29,285 bases of DNA from a virus, in IMG/VR virus record IMGVR_UViG_3300027963_000246, positions 1 through 29,285 of that record; one strand, 5' to 3'. This document shows, piece by piece, positions 9,350-27,908 of the stretch (position 1 is its first letter; every line of letters begins with the position of its first letter). The position numbers and the translations under genes were made by a program. The notes under the pieces were generated by a model. That model saw only the letters and a list, made by a program, of their open reading frames with translations. It had not been told where the DNA came from and did no database searches.

Positions 9350-9378
9350 TTGACCAATAAATCCAGAACTGCTATAAT
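9350..9378 (+). promoter_or_regulatory. Sigma70-type promoter
   Basis: TTGACC (9350-9355) and TATAAT (9373-9378) are separated by exactly 17 bases. This is close to the bacterial housekeeping consensus. It points away from the neck operon and drives the unknown gene at 9404, which also has a strong AAGGAG site at 9393-9398. Expression is probably early, by unmodified host polymerase. Confidence 0.85.
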
Positions 9379-9403
9379 TACACATAATCTTTAAGGAGTC
9401 CTT

Positions 9404-10531
9404 GTGAAACCGGTTAAACTCTTAAATCCTCGCAGTTCAGATACCAATGTCATGGGCGGCGAGCCTGCCTGGCGTGCTCAACCCACAGAAAATCGCATCA
9501 GTGCGTTGAGCAAAGCATTTTCCTGGTACAATTACTTTTACGGCAAAAAAGATGCCCGTGAAATGATTGTGAACTATCTGGAATCACAGGATCGCCGAGC
9601 AGATGTGCGCACACTAAAACGCATACCCGACTCAGCAATACGACTGACCACAGGCTGGTTGTGTCGCATGAAGATGGTGGGCCTGCAGTTAGATGAGCAT
9701 GAAGAAATCAAACTGGACAACTTGTTGCGAGAAATTTTAACCAGCAAACAAAATGCCGAAGTAGAGGATGAACTTGTAGTAGAAGGCCCTGCCCGGCCTA
9801 ACATTCAAGATCGCTTGAGAGAAAAAGTTGGAGAGTGTGCGGCTGAACTTGATGGCATGTTTGACGAATTTATGGTTGCTGGTGCAAAAATGTCAGCAGA
9901 CTACAAGCCCATCATGATGATTCGTGGTATGAATGTGGCACCGCAGATGATTAGCGAAATTGCCAATCGTTGGAAACGCAAACTAGTAGAGTTTGAAGCG
10001 GCAGTGGAAGGCAAAGATCCATTGTTAGTTGAAGCATACTCGTATCTGACCAAGATTCAATTGCGTAACTGTGTGAAGTTTTGCGAAGCAGTGATCAACG
10101 ACTGTGGCGCTTACGTACAGATCAAGAAAGTGGAACGCAAACCACGCAAGGTCCGAGCGGTGCCTCCAGAGAAACGTGCCGCAAAGTTCAAACACGTTCT
10201 AGAATTTGCAGAACTCAAACTCAAAGGATTACCGGCCGCAAACCTAGTAGACAAAGCCGAAGCCTGGTTGTATGATACTAAAAAACGCAAGTTGATTCAT
10301 GTTGTGGCCGACAGTCACACACAGGCATTTACTATTAAAAACAATAGTGTAATTGGTTACAGTACAGTAGAAACGCTACAAAAAACTGTGCGCAAGCCAG
10401 CAGATGTTGTCAAATCTATACAAGCCGCAGGTAAACCGGCCGCTAGAAAAATTTACAAAGATCTAACCACTACAGAAACACCTTGGAATGCCCGGGGCAC
10501 TGAGAACTTGATCATACTCAAAGCCTGGTAA
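9404..10531 (+). CDS. Unknown phage protein behind an early promoter
   Basis: I do not recognise this 375-residue protein. It is soluble, mostly helical in appearance and charged. A basic stretch near residue 245 (KKVERKPRKVRAVPPEKRA) could bind nucleic acid or be a linker. It has no signal peptide and no membrane segment. GTG is the chosen start because AAGGAG lies five bases upstream and a near-consensus sigma70 promoter lies before that. It is therefore likely made early, unlike the structural genes around it. The gene ends where the late promoter of the radical SAM gene begins. An early takeover or DNA-metabolism role is possible but is inference only. Confidence 0.75.
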   Translation: MKPVKLLNPRSSDTNVMGGEPAWRAQPTENRISALSKAFSWYNYFYGKKDAREMIVNYLESQDRRADVRTLKRIPDSAIRLTTGWLCRMKMVGLQLDEHEEIKLDNLLREILTSKQNAEVEDELVVEGPARPNIQDRLREKVGECAAELDGMFDEFMVAGAKMSADYKPIMMIRGMNVAPQMISEIANRWKRKLVEFEAAVEGKDPLLVEAYSYLTKIQLRNCVKFCEAVINDCGAYVQIKKVERKPRKVRAVPPEKRAAKFKHVLEFAELKLKGLPAANLVDKAEAWLYDTKKRKLIHVVADSHTQAFTIKNNSVIGYSTVETLQKTVRKPADVVKSIQAAGKPAARKIYKDLTTTETPWNARGTENLIILKAW

Positions 10532-10534: not shown

Positions 10535-10551
10535 GGGGATGAGATATCCCC
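10535..10551 (+). other. Hairpin containing a start codon
   Basis: GGGGAT (10535-10540) and ATCCCC (10546-10551) form a six-base-pair stem with a five-base loop. The ATG at 10539-10541 lies partly in the stem. With the late promoter ending at 10534, this would be the extreme 5' end of the mRNA. Confidence 0.6.
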
Positions 10552-11495
10552 CGCATTGGCCAGATGACCATCCTGACGATCCAAGAACATACATTCCAAA
10601 CATTGAGTTTTACATAACCAATGTTTGTAACTTGGCCTGTCCTCAATGCAATAGATTTAACGATCACGACTTTGCAGGTTGGCAACGCTGGAGTGATTAC
10701 GAAGAATTATATACCGAATGGTCCAAAAAAGTAAGACTACAGCGAGTAACCATACTAGGTGGTGAACCTCTACTGAATCCGTCTATATGTGATTGGATAA
10801 CAGGATTAAATCGTCTCTGGAACAAACGTGTGAATGTTCTCACCAACGGTACACGACTGAACCAGGTACCTGGATTATATGATGCAATGGCAAGTCATCA
10901 ACCTGTTAAAGATGGAAAAAATTGGATTGGCATCAGTGTACACAATGCTAACGATTTAGATCGTCATTTTGATGAAGTAAAAAAATTCTTACCAGGAAAA
11001 TTAGAATTTTTTGATGGCAAAAAAGATCCAACAAAAACTTGGAACGCAAATTATACATTTGTAGACTCAAATGATATCCGAATAAATCTATATCTTCAAG
11101 ATGACTTTAACCCATCATCGATACAAAAAAATAATCTAAATCAATTCTCTTTACATCAAAGCGATCCAATAGCCGCACACAATATATGTGGATTTGTTCA
11201 ATATCAATGTTATCATTTTATTCGTGCAAAATTATACAAATGTGGTCCCGTGGCACTTTTTCCAGAGTTTGATCAACAACATCATTTGAACATCTCCGAT
11301 GAGGACCGAAAATTACTAAACAGTTACAAACCGTTGACCGTAAATGAGTTTGATCAACGTGGCCAACAATTCATCGATGATATTGATGAGGTGATTCCGC
11401 AATGTAAATTTTGCCCAGACAAAGTAGAAAACAACATCAAGATACACTCGCTAAACAAATCCAAAAATGCAACAAGTTCTTTTAACACTAGGTGA
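10539..11495 (+). CDS. Radical SAM enzyme
   Basis: This 318-residue protein has the CX3CX2C iron-sulfur motif at C30, C34 and C37 and the SAM-binding GGEP at residues 74-77. Such enzymes cleave S-adenosylmethionine to start radical chemistry. C-terminal cysteines (CGFVQYQCYHF, YKCGPVALF, CKFCPD) suggest an auxiliary twitch/SPASM-like cluster, as in peptide- and small-molecule-modifying members. The substrate is unknown. An in-frame TAG at 10533-10535 forces the start at 10539. DNA from about 10900 to 11460 is visibly richer in A and T than its neighbours, suggesting recent acquisition. Its last 29 bases overlap the SGNH-like gene, so the two are probably translated together. Confidence 0.88.
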   Translation: MRYPPHWPDDHPDDPRTYIPNIEFYITNVCNLACPQCNRFNDHDFAGWQRWSDYEELYTEWSKKVRLQRVTILGGEPLLNPSICDWITGLNRLWNKRVNVLTNGTRLNQVPGLYDAMASHQPVKDGKNWIGISVHNANDLDRHFDEVKKFLPGKLEFFDGKKDPTKTWNANYTFVDSNDIRINLYLQDDFNPSSIQKNNLNQFSLHQSDPIAAHNICGFVQYQCYHFIRAKLYKCGPVALFPEFDQQHHLNISDEDRKLLNSYKPLTVNEFDQRGQQFIDDIDEVIPQCKFCPDKVENNIKIHSLNKSKNATSSFNTR

Positions 11496-12105
11496 TAGCT
11501 GGCCTGAGGGTGCTGAATTAAACTTTGGTGACCAACGCTATGGTGAATTGATACAACATGCACTTGGATACGACAAGTTTTACAACTACGGGTCTGCAGG
11601 CGCCAGCAACGAAGACATGCAGTATCAACTACAACGGTACGTTTCTGAATCACATGAACCGGGCGATCAAGTGACCGCTGTGTTTTTTCTAACCAACCCT
11701 ACTAGAACCGCACACTTTCCTCGATTTTTTGAATGGGGATCAGATTTAAACGCCAAGTTAAAAGAAGTATACTTACATTTTCACCGTCAAGAACACGAAA
11801 TCATGAGATCTAGCGCCACTGTGAGTGCGCTACAAGCCTGGTGCGCAAATTTAGGATTTGTTGACTATTATTTTTCTGGCTGGGTGCGATACCCCACGTG
11901 GTTGCCCGGAGTAGACACTAGTAAAATTTGGGCACAGGGCAACGAAACTGTGGCCGATTGGTTTGACGCCAGCAAACACAACGGAGAACACTTGCTGGAC
12001 GTAGGCGACAATATCTATATCCGTCCTAATTTTGCACATCCAAACCAACTTGGGCACCAACTAATTGCTGATCGACTGATTGGTTGGATCTCGCAGGCCC
12101 GATAA
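11467..12105 (+). CDS. SGNH/GDSL-hydrolase-like protein
   Basis: This 212-residue protein starts with a strand followed by GDSW (S11 as nucleophile) and has a block-II-like GSAGASNEDM. It ends with HPNQLGHQLIADRL, the block-V signature with His191. SGNH enzymes are esterases, lipases or acyl-transferring enzymes. The usual DxxH catalytic aspartate is asparagine here (N188-x-x-H191), so activity may be reduced, rely on a Ser-His dyad, or be lost. No signal peptide is visible, so it acts in the cytoplasm or virion. The 29-base overlap with the radical SAM gene suggests a joint pathway. The start is set by the beta strand that must precede GDSW. Confidence 0.75.
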   Translation: MQQVLLTLGDSWPEGAELNFGDQRYGELIQHALGYDKFYNYGSAGASNEDMQYQLQRYVSESHEPGDQVTAVFFLTNPTRTAHFPRFFEWGSDLNAKLKEVYLHFHRQEHEIMRSSATVSALQAWCANLGFVDYYFSGWVRYPTWLPGVDTSKIWAQGNETVADWFDASKHNGEHLLDVGDNIYIRPNFAHPNQLGHQLIADRLIGWISQAR

Positions 12106-12108
12106 ATA
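12101..12108 (+). promoter_or_regulatory. T4-type late promoter for gp13
   Basis: GATAAATA overlaps the stop codon of the SGNH-like gene and ends 18 bases before the gp13 ATG. Confidence 0.7.
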
Positions 12109-12126: not shown

Positions 12127-12891
12127 ATGGCTGAACAAAATACACTACCTGAGTTAAAGCAAAATCTTATTGAGTATTGCAAATTAACCATGGGTGATCA
12201 AATTATTGATCTTGAATTAGACCCTGCACACTACGAAGCGGCATATCAACGAACTCTAGGTGTTTATCGCCAACGTGCGCAAAACGCCTACGAAGAGGCC
12301 TACATCTTCATGGAGTTGATTCGTGACTTGAATATCTATACTTTACCGCAAGAAGTGCAAAGTGTGCGTCAAATATTTCGCAGAACTTTTGGTGATAGCA
12401 CTGGTCCTTTTGCCTCAAACTTTGATCCCTTTGCACAGGCTTCGATCAACGTTTATCTCATGAACTTCAACGTGGCAGGCGGACTAGCCACATACGATTT
12501 CTACAGCCAGTATGTTGAACTTGCTGGACGTATGTTTGGCGCATACATGAACTACACCTGGAATCCTGTGACCAAGAAACTGCAACTGATTCGTGACCCA
12601 AAAGGCACTGGCGAAAATGTACTGCTTTGGGTGTATCAAACCAAACCTGAAATTCAGTTACTGAGTGACTACCAAATCCAACAATGGATTCGGGACTACA
12701 TGGTTGGTGCTTGTAAAATGATCATTGGTGAAGCACGTGAAAAGTTTTCAACCATTGCCGGCCCACAAGGTGGCGGCCAATTGAACGGTGCTGCCATGAA
12801 ATCAGAAGGGCAAGCCATCATGGATGCCAAAATTGAAGAACTCAAAATGTACGTGGATGCAAGTCAACCACTTACCTGGGTAATTGGTTAA
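12127..12891 (+). CDS. 13: Neck protein, gp13-like head completion protein
   Basis: This 254-residue protein resembles T4 gp13 throughout: the N-terminal ELKQNLIEYCKLTMGDQIIDLELDP-type opening and a central YMNYTWNPVTKKLQLIRDP segment. Near the C-terminus are WIRDYMVGACKMIIGEAR, the AIMDAKIEELK helix and a WVIG end comparable to T4's FGILVG. gp13 and gp14 close the packaged head and form the tail attachment site. T4 gp13 has 309 residues, so this one is somewhat shorter. It is on the opposite strand from gp14-gp15 and about 2.8 kb away from gp14, unlike T4 where the three are adjacent. It has its own late promoter and a 5' hairpin. Confidence 0.85.
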   Translation: MAEQNTLPELKQNLIEYCKLTMGDQIIDLELDPAHYEAAYQRTLGVYRQRAQNAYEEAYIFMELIRDLNIYTLPQEVQSVRQIFRRTFGDSTGPFASNFDPFAQASINVYLMNFNVAGGLATYDFYSQYVELAGRMFGAYMNYTWNPVTKKLQLIRDPKGTGENVLLWVYQTKPEIQLLSDYQIQQWIRDYMVGACKMIIGEAREKFSTIAGPQGGGQLNGAAMKSEGQAIMDAKIEELKMYVDASQPLTWVIG

Positions 12892-13452: not shown

Positions 13453-14099
13453 TCATTGGCATCTGCGGATTTATTGGTTCTGGCAAAGACACTATTGCTG
13501 ACTACCTGGTAAACTTGCATCACTTTCGTAGAGAAAGTTTTGCGTCAACGCTAAAAGATGCTGTAGCACAAGTTTTTGGGTGGGATAGAACCATGCTAGA
13601 AGGACGTACAAAACAAGCACGTGAATGGCGAGAACAAGTGGATCCCTGGTGGGCAGAACGCTTGCACATGCCCACACTAACACCACGTTGGATTTTGCAA
13701 TACTGGGGAACAGAAGTGTGCAGAGCCGGCTTCCACGATGATATCTGGATTGCCAGTTTAGAAAACAAACTGCGTCACAGTCAAGATGATGTGGTGATAA
13801 GTGATTGTCGTTTTCCCAACGAAATACGTGCTATCAAAAACACCGGGGGAAGAGTTATCAGGGTAACTCGCGGGCCAGAACCCACCTGGTATGATGCCGC
13901 ATTGAGTGTGAATCGTGGGGCAAACGGCAATAGCACCTGGGCACTGAGTCAGCGCAAATTGGAAAAATATGGCGTTCATACATCGGAAACCGCCTGGGTT
14001 GGAACAGAATTTGATGTTGTACTAGACAACAATGGTACCCTGGATGACTTGTACCAGCAAGTTAAAAATCTGGTTCAAGGTCGCCGCGACGCCAGGTAA
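13449..14099 (+). CDS. 1: Deoxynucleoside monophosphate kinase, gp1-like
   Basis: This 216-residue protein has a P-loop at residues 7-15 (GFIGSGKDT). The N-terminal design is like T4 gp1 (GVKRSGKDTTAD) and so is the C-terminus (LDNNGTLDDLYQQVKNL against TNDGSLEELFSKIKNTL). T4 gp1 phosphorylates dGMP, dTMP and 5-hydroxymethyl-dCMP to diphosphates for phage DNA synthesis. The acceptor preference here is unknown. A conserved WILQYWGTEVCR stretch and SDCRFPNE fit the family. The start ATG overlaps the exonuclease stop, and AAGGA lies nine bases upstream. The last 38 bases run antisense to the HNH gene. A terminator follows inside that gene. Confidence 0.85.
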   Translation: MIIGICGFIGSGKDTIADYLVNLHHFRRESFASTLKDAVAQVFGWDRTMLEGRTKQAREWREQVDPWWAERLHMPTLTPRWILQYWGTEVCRAGFHDDIWIASLENKLRHSQDDVVISDCRFPNEIRAIKNTGGRVIRVTRGPEPTWYDAALSVNRGANGNSTWALSQRKLEKYGVHTSETAWVGTEFDVVLDNNGTLDDLYQQVKNLVQGRRDAR

Positions 14100-14406
14100 C
14101 ATCACTACGCTTCACTTCAATACTACAGTTCAAACACACAGTTCTAAGATTGCGTTGATTGCTATTGACTAAATCACCGTCGATGTGAAAAACAAATAAC
14201 TGACTAGGATATCTAGCTTTGAACCCGCATTTGTCACATGCGGGTTTTTTCTTGTACCCGTCTAGTTGCCAGCGAGGTACAGGTGCTTTCTGCTTGCGCC
14301 CACGGCGCTGACAAGCGGTACACATTGATCTATAGTACACACGATCATATTTGTGATAGGCCACCGCCCGAGGTTGCGTTCCGCATACTTTACAAAATGG
14401 TCTCAT
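14062..14406 (-). CDS. HNH-endonuclease-like zinc protein
   Basis: This 114-residue protein has two zinc-finger-like pairs (CKVCG with CTACQRRG, then CDKCGF with CLNC) around FHIDGD and QRNLRTVC. This is the arrangement of HNH proteins common in aquatic T4-like phages. HNH enzymes nick DNA and many are free-standing homing endonucleases. I chose the start at 14406 over the longer frame from 14499. The extra 31 residues are the antisense of the sheath promoter region, and a TAAATA element ends four bases before the 14406 ATG. It is a lone minus-strand gene between two plus-strand operons, which suggests insertion. Activity is not certain. Confidence 0.75.
   Translation of the reverse strand: MRPFCKVCGTQPRAVAYHKYDRVYYRSMCTACQRRGRKQKAPVPRWQLDGYKKKPACDKCGFKARYPSQLFVFHIDGDLVNSNQRNLRTVCLNCSIEVKRSDVTWRRGDLEPDF
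14222..14250 (+). terminator. Rho-independent terminator after dNMP kinase
   Basis: AACCCGCAT (14222-14230), loop TTGTCAC and ATGCGGGTT (14238-14246) make a nine-base-pair perfect stem. An uninterrupted T run to 14250 follows. It would end plus-strand transcripts from the 12934 promoter before the sheath. It is embedded in codons of the antisense HNH gene for the KKKPACDKCG region. Confidence 0.85.
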
Positions 14407-14410
14407 ACAG

Positions 14411-14418
14411 TATTTAGC
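14411..14418 (-). promoter_or_regulatory. T4-type late promoter for the HNH gene
   Basis: On the minus strand this reads GCTAAATA, ending four bases before the ATG at 14406. The spacing repeats that seen at gp14, gp16 and both radical SAM genes. Confidence 0.5.
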
Positions 14419-14468
14419 ACACGAGCCTACATATAGGTCGCTCAAACCAGGTGTTTTTGGCGGTTGCC

Positions 14469-14476
14469 AATAAATA
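14469..14476 (+). promoter_or_regulatory. T4-type late promoter for the tail sheath gene
   Basis: AATAAATA ends 24 bases before the sheath ATG. AAAAGGA at 14487-14493 provides a ribosome-binding site. Confidence 0.75.
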
Positions 14477-14500
14477 TTAGAACTTGAAAAGGAAACCATT

Positions 14501-25856: not shown

Positions 25857-26675
25857 ATGAAAAAAATATTAACCGTAGTCTTGCTGGTCACAGCAGGACT
25901 GGCACACGCCTGGGATCAACGTGCTCCTAATCCTGTTCAGGCATGTCAAGTACACTCACCTTATGGGTTTGCCATAGTCAAGCGTCCAGTACAAGCAATT
26001 TGCCGTGAAGCATATCTAGTGGCATATGATGCTCCTGTAAAGATTCCTGCTTACGTAGCCTACACATTACTTCCACAAAACGCACTAGGATGCTTTCCAC
26101 GTACCAATGCGTTTGTTGCTGACCAATCATTAGGCGGCACAGGTGCCCGTCCAGATGACTATGCTGGCACAGGCTACGACAAAGGTCATGCCGCTCCCGA
26201 TGGTGACTTGTCATGGTCAGCACAAGTAGAATATGAATCATTCTTAATGACCAATATGTATCCACAACACGGCAGTTTGAATCGTGGTATTTGGAAACTG
26301 TTGGAAACAAGTGTGCGTGGTTGGGCAGTACAACTCAATCAACCCTACACAATCTATGTGGGTGCGTTCTACGGTGCCGGTGATGAGTCAATTGGCAACG
26401 GCGTCGTTGTGCCACACGGCTTTTACAAAATTGTAATCAACAACCAAACCAAACAGATTGCTGGTTGGGCATTCCCACATACCAAACCCTATGTTAATTT
26501 AGGCAATGACTTGACCAAGTTCCGACTGCCAGTTAGCCAAATTGAAATCACAGCCGGTGTTAAATTTGCTTACCCAGCAGGTGCTCGAGAACTACAACCA
26601 GGACAAGAATGGCCAGTGGATTTTGGTGCACTCACAAATGCCAAACGTGCCCGGTGTGGTCGAAATGCAGAATAA
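25857..26675 (+). CDS. Secreted DNA/RNA non-specific endonuclease (NUC1/EndoG family)
   Basis: This 272-residue protein begins with a typical Sec signal peptide (MKKILTVVLLVTAGLAHA, probable cut after residue 18). It has the DRGH-type active site as D108-K-G-H111 and the metal-binding N142 in LNRGIWKLLE, with TNMYPQ between. Family members such as Serratia nuclease and NucA degrade DNA and RNA using a His base and one Mg or Mn ion. The late promoter and export signal suggest a periplasmic or extracellular role near lysis. Several cysteines in the mature part could form disulfides, as expected for an exported protein. This is not a core T4 gene, and transfer from a bacterium is likely. Confidence 0.88.
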   Translation: MKKILTVVLLVTAGLAHAWDQRAPNPVQACQVHSPYGFAIVKRPVQAICREAYLVAYDAPVKIPAYVAYTLLPQNALGCFPRTNAFVADQSLGGTGARPDDYAGTGYDKGHAAPDGDLSWSAQVEYESFLMTNMYPQHGSLNRGIWKLLETSVRGWAVQLNQPYTIYVGAFYGAGDESIGNGVVVPHGFYKIVINNQTKQIAGWAFPHTKPYVNLGNDLTKFRLPVSQIEITAGVKFAYPAGARELQPGQEWPVDFGALTNAKRARCGRNAE

Positions 26676-26777: not shown

Positions 26778-27908
26778 ATGAGCAATTTTTACTGTGCGGC
26801 ACCCTGGCGTGGCTTGCATATCAATCCCCAAGGCAATGTCAAAACATGTTGTGCTGGCAACCCCAACATGCTGGGCAATCTCAACACAAATACTATAGAT
26901 GAGATATTAAACACTGACGCCATGCGAGAGATACGTAAGAGCCTAGCACAAGGTCAAGCACATGAGTATTGTAGTAATTGCGTACAATCAGAAAGATTTG
27001 GTGCAGATTCAGAACGTACTTGGCACAACAACGTCAACCCCGATTTTGATTATGCCACAGCCGGTGATCGCTATCACTATCCTGTGATTTTTGATGTACG
27101 TTGGAACACAACTTGTAATTTGAGTTGTAATTATTGTGGACCTGCGTGTTCCAGCAAGTGGGCCAGCATCAAAAGCGTGCCATTTCGATCTGGTACAAGA
27201 CCCTACTATCAACAGGTGTGTGACTTCCTGGACCAGCATCGTGAACACATACACGAAGTGGCCATGGTAGGCGGCGAACCTTTGTTATTGCCCGAGAATG
27301 AACGTTTGTTAGAAGTTATCCCTGAGTCTGCTATTGTGACCTTGATCACAAACATGAATGTGGATTTAGAAAAGAACCGGATATTCCAAAAACTTGCGCA
27401 ACGTCGTAACGTGGGCTGGAGTATGAGTTTTGATAATACTGGTGATAGATTAGAATATGTGCGCCATGGTGCCAGTTGGCAGTTGTTACAACACAATCTA
27501 CAAACAGTTAAATATCTCATGCGCGACAACGGACATTGGGGAGGCATACACGCAGTGTATAACATTTATAGTGCTACACATCTTTGTGAATTTAGGCAGT
27601 TTGCTCAAGATACTGGTACCACAGTACTATGGCAAAACTTGTTTCAGCCTGACTATCTTGATCCATTCTTGCATGGTCTCAAAGTGGCCGGATTGGCCAG
27701 TGAAGAAATTCTTCGTTTTTATGCTATGGGTATCGCTACTGATGTTGAACGTCAATTCTTTGACCAAGCATTGGAAAAATATAAACAAACAAAAGATAAT
27801 CCTGTGATACAACAAAAGTTTCATAAACACATTCAAGACAACGAAACGGTATTTCATCCAGACAAAGCAGGTGAGTTTGCACGCCTGTGGCCGGAGTTGA
27901 TCATATGA
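26778..27908 (+). CDS. Twitch-type radical SAM enzyme
   Basis: This 376-residue protein has a cysteine-rich N-terminal part (C6, C24-C25, C65, C68) that looks like a SPASM/twitch auxiliary-cluster domain (APWRGLHINPQGNVKTCC). The radical SAM core follows, with CX3CX2C at C113, C117 and C120 and GGEP at 165-168. In most SPASM enzymes the auxiliary domain follows the core, so this order is reversed. Relatives occur in aquatic phages with unknown substrates. Peptide, protein or nucleotide modification are all possible. The late promoter lies four bases upstream, and the stop codon overlaps the gp17 start as ATGA. The enzyme is therefore likely co-expressed with the packaging motor. Confidence 0.88.
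   Translation: MSNFYCAAPWRGLHINPQGNVKTCCAGNPNMLGNLNTNTIDEILNTDAMREIRKSLAQGQAHEYCSNCVQSERFGADSERTWHNNVNPDFDYATAGDRYHYPVIFDVRWNTTCNLSCNYCGPACSSKWASIKSVPFRSGTRPYYQQVCDFLDQHREHIHEVAMVGGEPLLLPENERLLEVIPESAIVTLITNMNVDLEKNRIFQKLAQRRNVGWSMSFDNTGDRLEYVRHGASWQLLQHNLQTVKYLMRDNGHWGGIHAVYNIYSATHLCEFRQFAQDTGTTVLWQNLFQPDYLDPFLHGLKVAGLASEEILRFYAMGIATDVERQFFDQALEKYKQTKDNPVIQQKFHKHIQDNETVFHPDKAGEFARLWPELII

Follow-up and report, generated by a model that had tools for sequence, protein, structure and literature searches.

A recurrent radical SAM-SGNH gene pair among the neck and tail genes of large aquatic phages, a candidate glycan-editing cassette

The gene pair and its genomic surroundings

The window analyzed here, a complete IMG/VR record of 29,285 bases, is a fragment of a T4-like phage genome, and the terminase that it encodes has its closest counterparts in PA5oct-like jumbo phages (54% identity). 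Two genes on the plus strand, each with an ATG start codon, encode a twitch-type radical SAM enzyme of 318 amino acids (10539-11495; Pfam Radical_SAM, 1.8e-10, above the gathering score) and an SGNH/GDSL-fold protein of 212 amino acids (11467-12105; recognized by a Pfam Lipase_GDSL match of 1.4e-4 and an AF2 model). The pair is flanked, on the same strand, by a homolog of phrog_11903 (9404-10531; E 8e-55), a family with no assigned function that serves here as context only, and, after a spacer of 21 bp, by a neck protein gene of the gp13 type (12127-12891; phrog_211, head-tail adaptor Ad2, E 3.6e-26). The gene order thus runs from minus-strand genes for a tail-sheath-type protein and structural proteins through phrog_11903, radical SAM, SGNH, and gp13 to an exonuclease, a dNMP kinase, and a tail sheath protein. 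An HNH-endonuclease-like ORF on the minus strand (14062-14499), convergent and overlapping with the dNMP kinase gene, is conserved in about 50 related loci.

The two ORFs overlap by 29 bases (11467-11495), and these coordinates match exactly the overlap described in an earlier note on this DNA. The overlap has this exact length in the nearest relatives only, ranging elsewhere from 1 to 32 bases and rarely reaching 85 (when the earliest possible start codon is used), and was dropped as a family signature because its length varies among homologs. A chance pair of ORFs can be dismissed, given that both are conserved in dozens of contigs and show the signature of purifying selection in comparison with close relatives (dN/dS of 0.06-0.09).

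The pair had been placed between an early gene and gp13; the gp13 flank is borne out by the phrog_211 match, whereas the early label is not, given that a T4-late-promoter-like octamer (TATAATTA, 9373-9380, plus strand) is located some 31 bp 5' of phrog_11903, which it could serve together with the radical SAM and SGNH genes. Another late-promoter-like octamer (GATAAATA, 12101-12108, plus strand) spans the 3' end of the SGNH gene, ahead of gp13; both elements were recognized by sequence match only. Octamers matching at 7 of 8 positions occur just upstream of 6 of the 27 genes, compared with 0.6 expected at random positions; it is only this placement before genes, and not the octamer count in the whole window, that exceeds chance. 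The octamers before phrog_11903 and before gp13 are compatible with phrog_11903, radical SAM, and SGNH being expressed late, as a single unit.

As the earlier note maintained, the genome encodes two different radical SAM enzymes. The second one (26778-27908) belongs to the N_Twi_rSAM family (NCBIfam NF033640; 210.7 bits, curated cut-off 170), and its gene directly precedes and overlaps the terminase gene. The SGNH-paired enzyme scores 20.4 bits against the same profile, so that its assignment to this phage family was rejected. The twitch domain of N_Twi_rSAM is at the opposite end from that of the SGNH-paired enzyme, and the two proteins of the window are alike only around the cluster motif: they represent different subfamilies, and no functional link between them is apparent. 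The late region also encodes a DNA/RNA non-specific endonuclease (25857-26675; Endonuclease_NS, 5e-37), a short distance 5' of the gene for the second radical SAM protein.

Recurrence and inheritance of the pair

Contig scans, one per protein, yielded 27 and 67 contigs, and at least 523 matches to the radical SAM family were found in one scan, in aquatic phages. After a further scan, the radical SAM gene was found directly before the SGNH gene in 95 of the 96 cases with room upstream, the sole exception being a locus (L177) where it is likewise upstream but separated from SGNH by two genes. A wider scan revealed a second phage lineage, in which SGNH occurs alone. With duplicates removed, 55 of the 63 distinct SGNH genes adjoin a radical SAM gene, one more has such a gene within 8 kb, and the remaining seven, all from one phage lineage, are solitary. 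Conversely, there are many loci where the same site is occupied by radical SAM without SGNH, including one closely related to the window, where a short spacer separates radical SAM from gp13, and a 347-kb genome carries several radical SAM copies but no SGNH of the paired family. The SGNH-only loci and the radical SAM genes without SGNH rule out an obligate pair. The association is nevertheless strong and recurrent: the random distribution that, according to the earlier note, would argue against pairing is not what was found, with the 55 distinct SGNH genes directly 3' of radical SAM being spread over three genomic contexts.

This comparison rests on metagenomic contigs, because the phage isolate database contained a single distant homolog of the radical SAM enzyme and no homolog of SGNH. 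Among bacteria, no SGNH gene was found near the radical SAM relatives in 41 Pirellulaceae genomes, a search that had no positive control. A contig binned as Legionella (CAISKC010000069.1) shows the phage order radical SAM, gp13, exonuclease, and kinase; it probably comes from a phage and was binned wrongly.

In the first of the three contexts, the pair is inserted between phrog_11903 and gp13, as in the window; in Pseudomonas phage PA5oct, this site is empty, and the phrog_11903 homolog directly adjoins gp13. In the second context, found in another lineage, the pair lies between two conserved genes without assigned function, and in the third, it occupies a region that also encodes a GT25 glycosyltransferase, ahead of a DNA polymerase-like gene (a call made by eye). 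The recurrent neighbor families c36 and c15, which have no known domains, could not be assigned to a class with Pfam or PHROGs.

We compared evolutionary distances across the 36 loci that contain all four genes. The distances for radical SAM and SGNH correlate with r of 0.77, and 0.73 when gp13 is controlled for, whereas the correlations of the two genes with the flanking gp13 are only 0.37 and 0.45, a difference that linkage alone does not explain, given that SGNH is only 21 bp from gp13. Thus, radical SAM and SGNH have a far stronger common ancestry than either has with gp13 and, therefore, move as a cassette; this shared history, distinct from that of the adjacent neck gene, supports the functional pairing that had been suggested from gene arrangement. 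Alternatively, two unrelated auxiliary genes could have been inserted together by chance and then passed on through linkage in a single phage lineage. Such a passenger origin would account for the concentration of the paired loci in a single syntenic lineage (51 of 55) and for the occurrence of each gene on its own, but we consider it quite unlikely in view of the three genomic contexts, the co-ancestry that exceeds that with the immediate neighbors, the dN/dS values below 0.1, and the association of residue 224 of the radical SAM enzyme with SGNH described below. It also fails to anticipate the arrangement at locus L266, in the 347-kb genome, where one of the radical SAM paralogs is directly followed by a gene of another family, unclassified by Pfam, that encodes a GDSW motif.

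The encoded proteins

The first gene of the cassette encodes a twitch-type radical SAM enzyme of the SpeY/BtrN type, with a predicted auxiliary cluster. The radical SAM cluster motif CX3CX2C (C30, C34, and C37; 10626-10649) is followed by a putative auxiliary cluster site in two halves, namely C217-x17-C235 (11187-11243), which encloses C224 (11208-11210), and a CxxC motif (C289 and C292; 11403-11414) that aligns with CRNC of SpeY. The seven cysteines C30, C34, C37, C217, C235, C289, and C292 are invariant in 62 relatives from phages and bacteria. SpeY, a twitch radical SAM dehydrogenase (PDB 7wzx, 7wzv, and 7x0b) that acts in an aminocyclitol pathway, is the best match both in profile comparison (4.7e-18) and in the search of the PDB with the AF2 model (pLDDT 93.5; E 2.8e-10 over 314 columns, probability 1.00, TM 0.59-0.62). 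The full-length fold is shared between the two proteins, as are the CX3CX2C core and the C...C...CxxC site, but with 16% identity and a TM score of about 0.6, and SpeY lacks a cysteine at position 224; furthermore, the enzyme of the window is a phage gene product with an SGNH partner. The twitch dehydrogenase BtrN, which acts on 2-deoxy-scyllo-inosamine in an aminocyclitol pathway, contains one auxiliary cluster with four Cys ligands (PMC9012708). The phage enzyme shares this four-Cys site, although the fold match is weaker than that with SpeY and there is no significant sequence match.

Viperin was the top NCBIfam match of the radical SAM protein, and PADLOC reported pVip (1.7e-11, residues 22-138), which raises the alternative of an antiviral or anti-competitor enzyme producing a chain-terminating nucleotide. 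We rejected this assignment, and consider such a function highly improbable: the score against the viperin family (NF038283) is 39.6 bits, compared with a curated cut-off of 180, the match is limited to the core, downstream of which the phage enzyme has the conserved four-Cys C-terminal site, and the structural match is far below that with SpeY.

The Lipase_GDSL score of the second protein is just under the gathering score, and the AF2 model is of moderate confidence (pLDDT 83); this model matches the GDSL lipase 4rw0 and TesA with a probability of 1.00 and a TM score of about 0.5. Block I consists of the invariant residues G9, D10, S11, and W12 (GDSW; 11491-11502), with S11 as the would-be nucleophile, and the oxyanion-hole positions G45 (block II) and N77 (block III) are invariant in the family as well. 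Block V (NFAHPN; 12028-12045) retains H191, but N188 occupies the place of the canonical catalytic Asp, both residues being invariant. The resulting NxxH in place of DxxH is found in all homologs that reach block V, whether paired or solitary; the three sequences that seem to deviate (L003, L004-type, and L005) contain an HPNFAHPN repeat, in which Asn occupies position -3 of the second HPN. Thus, the fold and the Ser, Gly, Asn, and His positions are shared with TesA and the GDSL-family esterases, at about 15% identity, whereas the catalytic Asp is replaced by an invariant Asn.

An Asp-to-Asn change of the catalytic DxxH usually cripples hydrolysis, and an engineered change of the same kind, the D192N variant of rhamnogalacturonan acetylesterase (3c1u), is among the solved structures matched by the model. 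Because the catalytic Asp is missing, we call this protein SGNH-fold rather than SGNH hydrolase, and its reading as a simple esterase is weakened. Plain hydrolysis is uncertain, and the protein may bind or transfer its ligand or use another acid.

Substrate, residue 224, and the proposed activity

The earlier note left the substrate open between a glycan and a peptide, and the genes surrounding the homologs support the former more than the latter. The neighbors of a distant cyanophage homolog of the radical SAM enzyme include glycosyltransferases, an aminotransferase of the DegT type that carries the annotation 3-amino-5-hydroxybenzoic acid synthase, and a protein annotated as inosamine amidinotransferase, and the Pirellulaceae relatives adjoin genes for GT2, GT25, and sulfotransferase. 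In L177, a GT25-family gene is located just 5' of radical SAM, along with an unclassified protein, and SGNH follows three genes on. Paralogs of SGNH in the same phages lie beside genes for a sugar epimerase and a DegT aminotransferase, or for amidinotransferase-like, FkbM, and carbamoyltransferase proteins. No glycosyltransferase gene is found beside the pair in the window itself. Because relatives of both genes are located in glycosyltransferase and sugar clusters, and both BtrN and SpeY belong to aminocyclitol pathways, a glycan substrate, either a sugar or a cyclitol, is favored over a peptide.

The location within a structural module is equally compatible with a peptide target, the most common context of the pair being inside the neck and tail gene block. 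The radical SAM enzyme would, in that case, epimerize or crosslink residues of a structural protein encoded in the late region, with SGNH processing an acyl or glycosyl adduct. Among the solved structures, the family of the peptide epimerase EpeE ranks second, and in most Pirellulaceae relatives, a small proline-rich ORF follows the radical SAM gene. However, in the comparison with sugar- and peptide-modifying radical SAM families that had been suggested for this locus, EpeE matches far more poorly than SpeY (TM 0.41 and 0.59, respectively). Moreover, no precursor-like ORF adjoins the pair in the phages, and the homologs in other contexts are accompanied by glycosyltransferases and sugar enzymes; we therefore regard a peptide or virion protein as an unlikely substrate.

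Residue 224, located between the twitch cysteines 217 and 235, is Cys in all 57 distinct enzymes with an adjacent SGNH, but in only 10 of the 29 unpaired phage enzymes, the other 19 having Ser, Asn, or Asp (Fisher test, 3.7e-12, ancestry ignored). This column separates paired from unpaired enzymes better than any other, but the next-best columns likewise give a strong separation, as would be the case with a contribution of clades to the signal. The state of residue 224 changes at least eight times on the tree; among independent pairs on supported branches, three are concordant and none discordant, numbers that, with so few events, are not significant. In one locus (L065, 1029-3543), SGNH is flanked by two radical SAM genes, the second of which encodes Ser224, and L179, L185, and L207 each contain two tandem radical SAM genes without SGNH, all with Asn at this position.

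In the twitch epimerase HygY, according to the title of the respective paper, mutation of one Cys reveals dehydrogenase activity, and in NeoN, a Cys serves as the hydrogen donor (PMC10991966). Together with these two precedents, the pattern at residue 224 suggests a possible switch between epimerase and dehydrogenase like that reported for HygY, where the control by a single Cys is the proposed model for Cys224, a putative counterpart of the HygY cysteine. Alternatively, the phage enzyme could be a dehydrogenase like SpeY and BtrN that yields a keto-sugar, with SGNH handling the acyl groups of that sugar and Cys224 being a fifth cysteine, non-essential or on the cluster side. The dehydrogenase activity of SpeY, the best solved relative, and the BtrN-like four-Cys auxiliary site speak for this possibility, which we nevertheless find doubtful because Cys224 is present in every SGNH-paired enzyme and absent in SpeY.

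Taken together, these observations lead us to propose, with a probability of roughly one half, that the pair is a mobile cassette with which phages edit a glycan in the late phase of infection, the Cys224 form of the radical SAM enzyme epimerizing a sugar and SGNH acting on the same sugar. Lodged among neck and tail genes of large aquatic phages, the pair probably restyles a sugar coat. Using SAM, the radical SAM enzyme would remove hydrogen from a carbon that bears a hydroxyl group in a sugar or cyclitol; in enzymes with Cys224, this residue would give hydrogen back from the other face, resulting in an epimerized sugar, and SGNH would then bind, acylate, or deacylate that sugar, whereas the Ser224 or Asn224 forms without SGNH would oxidize the carbon to a ketone. 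The target glycan could belong to the phage particle or to the host surface, and its modification might change a receptor or exclude competing phages. Apart from the location in the structural module, several findings count against this proposal: no glycosyltransferase gene adjoins the pair in the window, the Cys224 association corrected for ancestry depends on few events, 10 of the 29 unpaired enzymes retain Cys224, the nearest solved homolog is only 16% identical, and SGNH has no catalytic Asp. Tentatively, and with more doubt than for the proposal as such, residue 224 could be a natural chemical switch in a large family of phage enzymes, such that Cys224 enzymes epimerize a glycan sugar and cooperate with SGNH, which binds the product or acylates it, whereas Ser224 and Asn224 enzymes are dehydrogenases acting alone or in tandem. 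By exchanging cassettes with different radical outcomes, phages would then tune the glycans of the virion or the host.

The suspicion of an undescribed phage modification system holds in part: the radical SAM and SGNH families are already known, but the literature searched contains no description of the cassette, of its similarity to SpeY, of the absent Asp, or of the Cys224 pattern. In pelagimyophages, cassettes of radical SAM genes and glycosyltransferases have been found in hypervariable regions, and a change of the host O-chain has been proposed (PMC7029224). These T4-like aquatic phages resemble those analyzed here in carrying radical SAM cargo along with glycan genes; the location differs from that of the pair in the window, and the paper mentions no SGNH or GDSL protein. 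Radical SAM editing of sugars is known mainly from aminoglycoside-type pathways, whereas the SpeY-like family is abundant in aquatic phages, where its genes are found among those for virion proteins, together with a co-inherited partner. If the proposal is correct, radical-based sugar editing would join the known ways in which phages alter glycans, and the Cys224 pattern provides a specific chemical prediction, for which one mutant and one natural variant would suffice as a test.

Several related loci deserve mention in their own right. A phage gene cluster (L260; G001:38000-44000) encodes an amidinotransferase-like protein, an SGNH paralog, an FkbM methyltransferase, and a carbamoyltransferase, a combination that resembles aminocyclitol decoration. 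In about 30 Pirellulaceae loci (L082-L128), the proline-rich small ORF lies directly 3' of radical SAM, among GT2, GT25, and sulfotransferase genes, and its product may serve as a peptide substrate or be a protein that is glycosylated. In Lachnospiraceae (L146, 5396-13203), a distant radical SAM relative is located among flagellin-like genes (identified by eye), DUF4422, and glycosyltransferases, which suggests flagellin glycosylation.
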